Origin: Alphaproteobacteria bacterium
GTDB lineage: Bacteria > Pseudomonadota > Alphaproteobacteria > Micavibrionales > Micavibrionaceae
Direction: 5' to 3'
NCBI GenBank assembly: GCA_016757515.1
Contig: JAERIN010000001.1
Span: 1 to 64,000 of the forward strand
DNA: 64,000 nucleotides
Shown here: positions 5,990-7,837 of the stretch, in pieces
How the letters are laid out: each line of letters begins with the position of its first letter
Numbering within the stretch: position 1 is the first letter of the stretch
Notes under the pieces: model-generated
Databases searched by the model: none
What the model was told of the DNA's origin: nothing
Seen by the model: the letters and a program-made list of their open reading frames with translations, nothing else
Position numbers and translations under genes: made by a program

Positions 5990-6526
5990 TTATATAACCA
6001 CGGGGGCGGCGTGCGCCACCCGTGCGATGGCCTTATCCAGTTCTTCAAAGGGCACCTCCTGGGCCCCCAGTGCGCACAAGCGCGCCAGAGACAGGCTCTT
6101 TTGCGTCCCCAGACCGGCATCTAAATCTGCAGCAGACATAACATAGAACGTCCACTGGTCCATGTTCAGGGGGTCTATGCTCTCCCGCTCCCGGTGGTGG
6201 AGCAAACAGAAAACGTACACATCCGCCTGACGCCTTTGCGCCTGCGCATACGCGCCGCTTTGGGCGTCCCAGGCCCGCGAAGGCTTGATACTAAACGCAA
6301 TGCGCGAGGGGCCCTTCTGGGCCCAGCTCTGAACATACGCGGCGGATTTTACCTCTATCTTCACACCCTGCGGCGTTTCCAGGTCATAGGCCTCCCATTC
6401 CGTGCGGGTGGTATGGTGGGCGCGGGTGGCCAGGCCCACGATATACTCGGCCAGGATGCCGCGCAGGGCGTTGCCCGTTAAATCTCTCCGGGTCTCATTC
6501 CCCGCCCCTTGGGGCGCACCTCCCAA
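5990..6526 (-). pseudogene. C-terminal part of a split PD-(D/E)XK-like nuclease gene
   Basis: The frame is open from 6526 to 5990. Its first ~15 residues are encoded by the left direct repeat and are not family sequence. From TRRDLTGNALRGILAEYIVG onward it matches a conserved bacterial hypothetical family with a nuclease-like signature (WEAYDLETPQGVKIEVKSAA; QADVYVFCLL; QWTFYVMS). The missing N-terminus is present across the insertion at 7736-7837, and the two pieces join as ...FWQWSAS plus DLTGNALRG.... The fragment may still be translated because ATG codons exist near the break, but it lacks the conserved N-terminus. It lies seven bases upstream of the rseP GTG. Confidence 0.7.
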
Positions 6527-6606
6527 AAAAGGCAGACGACCAGGATAGCGCCGTAATACACCGCCGCTTGCGGCGGGGATAGGCGCTTCAGGCTGCCGGT
6601 TTATTC
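6481..6606. repeat. Left copy of ~125-bp direct repeat (element boundary)
   Basis: This 126-bp sequence recurs in the same orientation at 7617-7741 with about eight differences, including one single-base indel. It contains a perfect hairpin (CCGCCG-CTTG-CGGCGG, 6560s). On the minus strand it also has longer pairing arms (GGCAG...CTGCC and GCGCC...GGCGC). One minus-strand frame is open across most of it and reads TGSLKRLSPPQAAVYYGAIL before diverging. It carries the stop codon of the enclosed nuclease-like gene. The structure and size recall Rickettsia palindromic elements, but sequence identity to them cannot be checked here. Confidence 0.85.
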
Positions 6607-7604
6607 AGACGCAACTTTGTTTTTGCAAAAGCCTCGGACACGCTGTCACAAGTAAGCAATAGATCTATGAAACATTCACAACGTGCGGATCGCTGTATCT
6701 GCGTATAGCCTTTGGCTTTGTCAATCGTTCTCACCTCCCTGGGCGGACGAATTGCTGTTCCCAGCTCATAAAGATAGTGCTTTTCGCCGGTTGGGTGTGG
6801 AGATGACAGATTGAAAGCTTCCTGATAATCCTCAATCACCCTGTAAGATTCTATGTGATGAATTGATTGCAGTTTGCCGTAATATCGAAAGCCTATATAG
6901 TTTGGCGGCTCTATCGGCCAACGATTGCCGACCGGATGGAAATATTTCTGATGTTTTTCGATAACATCAACAAAGCTGATTCCTTTGTCTTTGAAAAACA
7001 CCTCATCGCTGACGGAAACAACATATACAAGGTTGGACGTTTGGTTTTGCATAATGGTTACCTTCTCTAAATATTCAATAAGCTGGCGGAGCAGCCTTTT
7101 CTCAGAATGCGCCATGGTTTTTGCCGCGCAAGTGATCGCCATTTTCTGAAATCGTCGCCACGAAATCGCCTGAACCACCACCTGTTTAACATGGGTTGGT
7201 GCACGCTGCGCAAGCCATTGCTCTTCGCGGTCTGATTCTGCCAGTACCAGCAGCATCTTCTCCGCTTTTGTGTCTGCGCTGGCGTGGAGCCTGTCTGCAT
7301 ATTTTTCCAGTTGTTCTCGAAAGGGAATGTTAAAGCCGCGCTTCGCTTCAATAATAATATGGAATCTACCGGGATCGATGATTTCAATGTCGGTAAATCC
7401 TTTTTCTTTGAAATGATCCTGCAAACGTATATGCACGGCGTCAGAAAAACCGTCTTGAATGCCCAACATCCCAGCTAGCCCCTGACAAAAGCCATTGCAC
7501 TTTGCAAGCGCCCAGCCAAGGCTATAGGTCATGGCGTTTTCGTCGTTCCCCAACAACTCAAAAACGGTATCCACTTTTTGACCATGCACCGTTAGCTGCG
7601 TCAT
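6588..7604 (-). CDS. PD-(D/E)XK nuclease-like protein, cargo of the repeat-flanked insertion
   Basis: 338 residues starting at ATG 7604 (MTQLTVHGQKVDTVFELLGN), with GGAGG just upstream; a longer frame exists but runs through the repeat. Near residues 90-110 is FTDIEIIDPGRFHIIIEAKR, a D...(E)xK pattern typical of the PD-(D/E)XK fold. RFHIIIEAKRGFNIPFREQLEKYADRL resembles nuclease domains seen in defence genes. The C-terminal half is a separate unrecognised domain (SNLVYVVSVSDEVFFKDKGI ... YIGFRYYGKL). GC is visibly lower than the neighbours, so recent acquisition is likely. The last residues (LNKPAA) and stop are encoded by the left repeat. A role in phage defence is inferred, not shown. Confidence 0.7.
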   Translation of the reverse strand: MTQLTVHGQKVDTVFELLGNDENAMTYSLGWALAKCNGFCQGLAGMLGIQDGFSDAVHIRLQDHFKEKGFTDIEIIDPGRFHIIIEAKRGFNIPFREQLEKYADRLHASADTKAEKMLLVLAESDREEQWLAQRAPTHVKQVVVQAISWRRFQKMAITCAAKTMAHSEKRLLRQLIEYLEKVTIMQNQTSNLVYVVSVSDEVFFKDKGISFVDVIEKHQKYFHPVGNRWPIEPPNYIGFRYYGKLQSIHHIESYRVIEDYQEAFNLSSPHPTGEKHYLYELGTAIRPPREVRTIDKAKGYTQIQRSARCECFIDLLLTCDSVSEAFAKTKLRLNKPAA

Positions 7605-7616
7605 GCGGCCTCCTTC

Positions 7617-7741
7617 AATCTCTCCGGGTCTTATTCCCCGCCCCTTGGGGCGCACCTCCTAAAAAAGGCAGCCGACCAGGAAGCACCATAATACCACGCC
7701 GCTTGCGGCGGGGATAGGCGCTTCAGGCTGCCGGTTTATTC
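7617..7741. repeat. Right copy of ~125-bp direct repeat (element boundary)
   Basis: This is a 125-bp copy of the 6481-6606 sequence in the same orientation. On the minus strand it is preceded directly by the broken N-terminal gene piece, whose reading frame ends in a TAA at the repeat border. The open minus-strand frame reads TGSLKRLSPPQAAWYYGASW in this copy. Arms GGCAGCC/GGCTGCC and GAAGC/GCTTC flank a GCCG-CTTG-CGGC hairpin. Arm changes between copies are partly matched (GGCGC in one, GGTGC in the other, against GCGCC), hinting that RNA or DNA secondary structure is kept. Confidence 0.85.
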
Positions 7742-7837
7742 CGATGCCGACCACTGCCAAAAGGACAAAAGGTCCGCGCCCAGCGGGCAGCCCCCGGCGC
7801 GGAAGGGCTCTTTGCCTGTTTTGCGGGATATGGCCAT
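7736..7837 (-). pseudogene. N-terminal fragment of the split nuclease-like gene
   Basis: 33 codons from ATG 7837 (MAISRKTGKEPFRAGGCPLG) to ...LLSFWQWSASE and a TAA created at the border of the right repeat. Intact members of this hypothetical family, as I remember them, start with a KTG...FWQWSASDL segment followed by the conserved RG(I/V)LAE(Y/F)IV segment that is found here at 6470-6440. The fragment begins seven bases after the dxr stop, so before the insertion the order was dxr - nuclease-like gene - rseP. Confidence 0.7.

Follow-up and report, generated by a model that had tools for sequence, protein, structure and literature searches.

Within the window, a stretch of 64,000 nucleotides from an alphaproteobacterium of the Micavibrionaceae, a 1,257-bp unit made of one low-GC gene between two direct repeats interrupts a second gene. 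The locus is real and cleanly resolved. It combines two IS derivatives, neither with a transposase, in one composite and does not represent a new class. The repeats are best read, from their sequence, as non-autonomous elements of the IS200/IS605 type (PATE/MITE) that keep only the LE and RE hairpins. The features are as follows.

6484..7740, no strand assigned: whole inserted unit (1,257 bp, 2-base placement ambiguity, zero target-site duplication)
6484..6605, plus strand: left repeat copy, non-autonomous IS200/IS605-type element (LE at 6484, RE at 6605), after host TTAAAT
7620..7740, plus strand: right repeat copy, non-autonomous IS200/IS605-type element (LE at 7620, RE at 7740), after TTCAAT
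6503..6517, plus strand: LE hairpin of the left copy, CGCCCC..GGGGCG; the same in the right copy at about 7639-7653
6530..6597, plus strand: long RE hairpin of the left copy, with foot GGCAG...CTGCC and core GCCGCTTGCGGC, then a tail of about 9 nt
about 7666-7732, plus strand: long RE hairpin of the right copy, counterpart of that in the left copy
6588..7604, minus strand: cargo gene, 338 aa, PD-(D/E)XK-like; its end (about NKPAA and the stop) is encoded by the left-copy RE
7742..7837, minus strand: 5′ part of the host gene, codons 1-32, MAISRK...FWQWSAS, defined by the joined ORF and uninterrupted homologues
5990..6484, minus strand: 3′ part of the host gene, codons 33-196 and stop, DLTGNALRG..., defined in the same way
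6478..6483, plus strand: target motif TTAAAT in the host gene, within the codons of L34 and invariant D33

The inserted unit and the interrupted host gene

The left repeat is 122 bp long and the right one 121 bp. They lie in the same orientation and are identical at 114 of 121 aligned positions (94%), with one 1-bp gap in addition. Between them is a single gene, on the minus strand. Its GC content is 46.7%, as compared to 60-61% for the repeats, 61.8% for the host gene and 65.4% for the window, and by this composition the cargo is foreign. The preliminary description had reported direct repeats of about 125 bp, about 94% alike, around one low-GC gene, and no transposase inside the unit; all of this agrees with our data. 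No further copy of the repeat was found in the assembled source genome (1.75 Mb, 90 contigs), and a search for Rfam RNAs (self-splicing intron, riboswitch) gave no match.

When base 6484 was joined to base 7742, exactly 1,257 bp being removed, an uninterrupted ORF of 196 aa was obtained. Homologues carried on plasmids of Pseudoalteromonas, Bacillus and Rhodococcus, 46-51% identical, show no break at the junction, which reads FWQWS-x-SDL-x-GNALRG (FWQWS.SDL.GNALRGILAEYIV) with S32, D33 and N37 invariant. As judged from these alignments, the two flanking frames are one gene. The splitting of a nuclease-like gene by a repeat-cargo-repeat unit, as first described, therefore stands, and so do the expected FWQWS N-terminus of the host family and the assignment of both flanks to one protein. 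The initial coordinates were off by a few bases: the N-terminal part has 32 codons (7742-7837) and not 33, and the remainder spans 5990-6484. The uninterrupted gene was found as the plasmid homologues. None of the other 103 genomes searched in the same taxonomic family encodes a member of its family, so that these hold no empty-site orthologue and the host gene looks accessory too. No Pfam family was found for it, and its product may be termed nuclease-like solely from conserved D66 and E76-V-K78.

The host gene sits between dxr and rseP, gene names being our reading of the ORFs. On the minus strand, at 7660-7735 and 6525-6600, each repeat has a strong hairpin with TTTTTT on its transcriptionally downstream side, and the repeats may cause transcription termination inside the dxr-rseP cluster. 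The orphaned 3′ part of the host gene is open into the left repeat (5990-6526) with a TTG start; a truncated host protein could be made from it.

Repeat ends, target motif and relatives of the repeats

The extreme ends of the repeats, CTCTCCGG and GGTTTATT, are non-complementary, and terminal inverted repeats are thus absent. Single-strand folds place subterminal hairpins at both ends, the LE fold alone being no better than shuffles (z -0.9). Neither the junction nor the alignment with homologues showed any target-site duplication, no host base being duplicated or lost. Since TTAAAT is present in the restored host gene, precisely at the junction, this motif belongs to the target. Of 23 distinct copies, the two of the window included, 20 have TTWAAT as the six bases ahead of LE, as compared to a background of 0.1% of positions in the same loci. 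The three exceptions, TTCAAT (inner window copy), ATAAAT and ATTAAT, are each one base off. The insertion is therefore a clean one, at the target motif of the element family. Insertion 3′ of a motif with neither duplication nor terminal inverted repeats reads as the IS200/IS605 signature. Members of this group have no terminal inverted repeats, make no target-site duplication and insert 3′ of a tetra- or pentanucleotide, and PATEs consisting of the ends only are documented (PMC7290912). They carry hairpins near their ends together with guide sequences (PMC6006769), and the ends of Borrelia IS605B lie 25 bp and 9 bp outside the stem-loops (PMC2775950). Candidate guide tetranucleotide pairings with the target and RE cleavage sites were seen by eye, in some copies only.

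With the repeat as a query, relatives gave short matches that covered one end and often lay at the edge of a contig. Patterns made for either end then revealed elements dispersed over several genera. Complete copies, of about 50-180 bp, run from LE (TTWAAT^CTCTYYGGG..TTATTCCCCGCCCCTTGGGGCG) to RE (TRATACC.CGCYGCTTGCGGCGGGGTT.TTCATT^) with constant polarity, and occur as solitary hairpin elements. The RE hairpin of the two window copies is longer, with a GGCAGCC...GGCTGCC foot, and is followed by a tail of 9 nt; this extended RE variant was not seen in relatives. Searching the repeat against its genome and relatives, as had been recommended, thus yielded just two copies in the former and solitary LE-to-RE elements in the latter. 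For a solitary copy in one relative (G088), no other relative spans the site for an empty-site comparison.

In relatives, other palindromic repeats are often nested inside the elements. At L030, L034, L036, L047, L048 and L064, unrelated palindromes (CGTCATTGCGAG...CGCAATGACG and CCCTCACCCTAACCCTCTCCC types) are nested at the same place, which suggests a preferred landing site for one repeat family in another.

The link to a transposase comes from a relative, G001. In this genome, the N-terminus of a Y1 (IS200-like) transposase (EYIHKSHNVTVLLYHLVFPAKYRRVVF) comes after the same LE and its C-terminus (STVGKHGDEDMIKRYVQNQGKEY...) before the same RE, with STVGKHGDEDMIKRYVQNQGKEYNQLHEDRQLSMF and the stop ahead of RE. 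The window repeat is identical to the G001 ends at 20/20 positions of LE and 21/23 of the RE core; 0/2,000 dinucleotide shuffles were as good. Five G001 contigs (C1, C36, C55, C27, C39) break off within the element, as they would for an IS present in several copies, and the full transposase gene is absent from the assembly. The TnpA fragments of G001 match Y1 transposases of the same family. The 27-aa N-terminal fragment alone matched Pfam weakly (E 0.066), and comparison of both fragments with PDB sequences gave no informative match. Both fragments also align with a decayed copy in G101 (L190), at 81% and 73% over the parts that align, and this copy matches Pfam Y1_Tnp with E 3e-8. Among the Y1 loci of the family no complete autonomous element was found; L190, though decayed, alone has tnpA fragments together with RE-like sequence.

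Overall, the window repeats combine copies linked to a Y1 transposase, no target-site duplication, insertion 3′ of a fixed motif and subterminal hairpins, all features of IS200/IS605 membership. Sequence comparison shows that their ends are common to a Y1-transposase element in relatives, just as it shows that the host gene is split. No Y1 transposase (PF01797) was found in the assembled source genome, a point against mobility of the unit there. TnpA may have worked in trans, may since have disappeared, or may lie in a part missing from the assembly. A mobilising TnpA in the same genome is not required for PATE/MITE membership.

The cargo gene

The PD-(D/E)XK-like motif first noticed in the cargo was confirmed, residues D72, E74, E86, A87 and K88 being invariant in 35 homologues. 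Pfam PDDEXK_4 remained sub-threshold, with E 0.09 for the window cargo and 4e-4 for a homologue 75% identical to it. AlphaFold modelled the protein with confidence (pLDDT 90). With this model, Foldseek gave no match with E <1e-3 in the PDB; weak matches were mixed, comprising PD-(D/E)XK nucleases (EcoO109I, NucS, EndoMS, PD-T4-3) and ASCH/YTH-type PUA-like folds. The D...(D/E)xK motif is predicted to lie on an alpha/beta core, in agreement with a PD-(D/E)XK nuclease. As a guess, the protein might join a nuclease to a PUA-like reader, as in modification-dependent restriction enzymes. PADLOC gave weak matches only between the cargo and candidate defence proteins (PDC-M15A, E 3e-4).

The cargo family occurs at no fewer than 80 genome loci from many phyla (an alignment query gave 90 matches, 80 of which were kept); a single-sequence search with the cargo over genome contigs gave no match. 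No Pfam model passes its cut-off for this family, which is spread over many bacterial phyla (L085-L158). Its C-terminal half is conserved (YFHPVGxxGWPxEPPNYIAFRYxGKLQSIHHIE). In two gammaproteobacterial MAGs (L079 and L080, CAR1 and CAR2 bins), the cargo homologue has identical near flanks and a common downstream ORF, and the loci diverge farther out, as if the homologue were on a mobile segment.

In an alphaproteobacterial MAG (L082), a 64%-identical homologue lies between hsdS and hsdR, behind hsdM. There, as for the window cargo, the start overlaps an hsdS-type stop (KEAA*/ATGA): the window start context is AGGAGGCCGCATGACGCAG, as in L082, and the frame upstream reads KEAA-stop like the L082 hsdS tail. 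Because of this common start context and KEAA-stop, the cargo most likely comes from a type I restriction-modification operon. Another genome of the same family as the source genome (G031:C3, L017, 1500-1645) has an internally deleted cargo remnant that keeps its first and last codons and is placed between the hsdS tail and the hsdR start. The suggestion of a defence cargo is only partly borne out, by the operon in L082 and by this remnant at the hsdS-hsdR junction, but several cargo homologues are orphan genes. The relaxase-like gene that adjoins the G031 remnant gives the restriction operon a mobile-element context. A second remnant (L018, G102:C46, 1501-1572), of 24 residues near the cargo C-terminus only (83%), directly adjoins a helicase-like gene.

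Origin of the composite and comparison with known systems

The features of a composite transposon are present: two copies bound a passenger, the outer ends are intact and the insertion signature is there. We think it rather probable that two ends-only elements came to bound the gene, and that a Y1 transposase acting in trans moved the outermost LE-RE unit into the host TTAAAT. The flanked gene would have been part of a type I restriction-modification operon, probably that of a relative with lower GC; one copy would have lain in the hsdS tail, its LE following TTCAAT, and the other at the end of the cargo gene. For the transposase, the outermost LE (6484) and RE (7740) would have served as the two ends of a single element. 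The 1,257-bp unit would then have moved as single-stranded DNA and inserted 3′ of TTAAAT without target duplication. We infer movement in one piece, TnpA in trans, the donor and a cargo that would still be a functional nuclease. For Tn3-type TIMEs, it has been demonstrated that a composite of two miniature elements can move as a whole (PMC4133298). The two repeats being 6% diverged, the event is old or the copies were unlike from the start. Excision by recombination between the repeats is possible. Among relatives, about 460 kb of sampled sequence contained no second composite, and no second location of the 1,257-bp unit was found in the sampled genomes.

The observed DNA would also follow from capture in two steps, in which a single element inserted in the host gene and homologous recombination between the 121-bp repeats later brought in a circle with a repeat and the cargo. 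We hold this to be a serious, if unlikely, alternative. Sequence alone fits both, the structure, target motif and lack of duplication being equally expected. Solitary elements are common in relatives, and a history of this kind has been put forward for composites with MITESen1 in direct repeat, for which there are plasmids carrying one copy alone at that site (PMC13367494). It needs a second repeat-bearing circle, however, while the source genome has no other copy, and no relative is known with one repeat at this site, the host gene being absent from the other 103 family genomes.

Transposition of the unit was also weighed against readings that dispense with transposon ends. According to the preliminary description, the locus could be a new kind of passive island. 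In that case the repeats would be a plain duplicated terminator or spacer permitting recombination, and the hairpin with six T on the minus strand of both copies, like the count of just two copies in the source genome, agrees with this. The repeats, however, carry the ends of a known element type, IS200/IS605 (Y1 transposase), matching both the dispersed LE/RE elements and the Y1-transposase IS of relatives, and the insertion lies exactly at the family's target motif. The passive reading is largely refuted by these common ends, and we regard it as very unlikely. An assembly artefact joining unrelated pieces is slightly less plausible again: the genome is a draft and the repeats are near the assembly word length, yet 7 positions and a gap distinguish the two copies, one protein is restored exactly from the flanks, and a target-like motif is present at the inner as well as the outer junction. 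Least credible is an integron-like cassette, in which attC-like repeats would flank the cargo ORF. One ORF is indeed tightly trimmed between imperfect palindromic repeats of attC size, but the solitary elements of relatives, their polarity and the transposase fit IS200/IS605. No GTTRRRY or RYYYAAC core was present in either repeat on either strand, and the cassette was rejected.

If transposition of the unit is real, hairpin elements usually taken for inert intergenic repeats can carry genes without target duplication. Composites of this type would then be missed by tools based on inverted repeats and duplications, because no target duplication is left. The split host gene is an exact empty site, and the insertion rule is therefore directly testable. 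As a broader and doubtful proposal, paired transposase-less IS200/IS605 hairpin elements might mobilise single restriction or defence genes in this bacterial family, with scarless single-strand delivery into accessory genes at TTWAAT.

Three known systems come closest. The accessory gene of a type I operon, hsdM-hsdS-X-hsdR, is in L082 a full-length homologue of the cargo, whereas the window cargo stands alone, without hsdM, hsdS and hsdR. IS200/IS605-derived PATEs, for example those of Halanaerobium (PMC7290912), are like the window repeats ends-only, with subterminal hairpins, no target-site duplication, insertion 3′ of a short motif and a transposase supplied elsewhere. Borrelia IS605B (PMC2775950) has similarly asymmetric distances from end to stem-loop, and its end encodes the 3′ end of a neighbouring gene, as the left-copy RE does for the cargo. 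The window differs from PATEs and IS605B in that two copies bracket a gene as a unit and the target motif is TTWAAT. Composites with miniature ends are documented for Tn3-type ends, and in the open-access literature searched none was found bounded by miniature elements of the single-strand IS200/IS605 type. In Tn3-derived TIME-COMP (PMC4133298, PMC13367494), as in the window, a passenger gene lies between two miniature elements that lack a transposase; some of these composites have the elements in direct orientation, and they measure about 1-4 kb or more. TIMEs end in inverted terminal repeats and make 5-bp duplications, whereas the window unit belongs to another element family, with hairpin ends and zero duplication, for which transposition of the single-strand type is expected.
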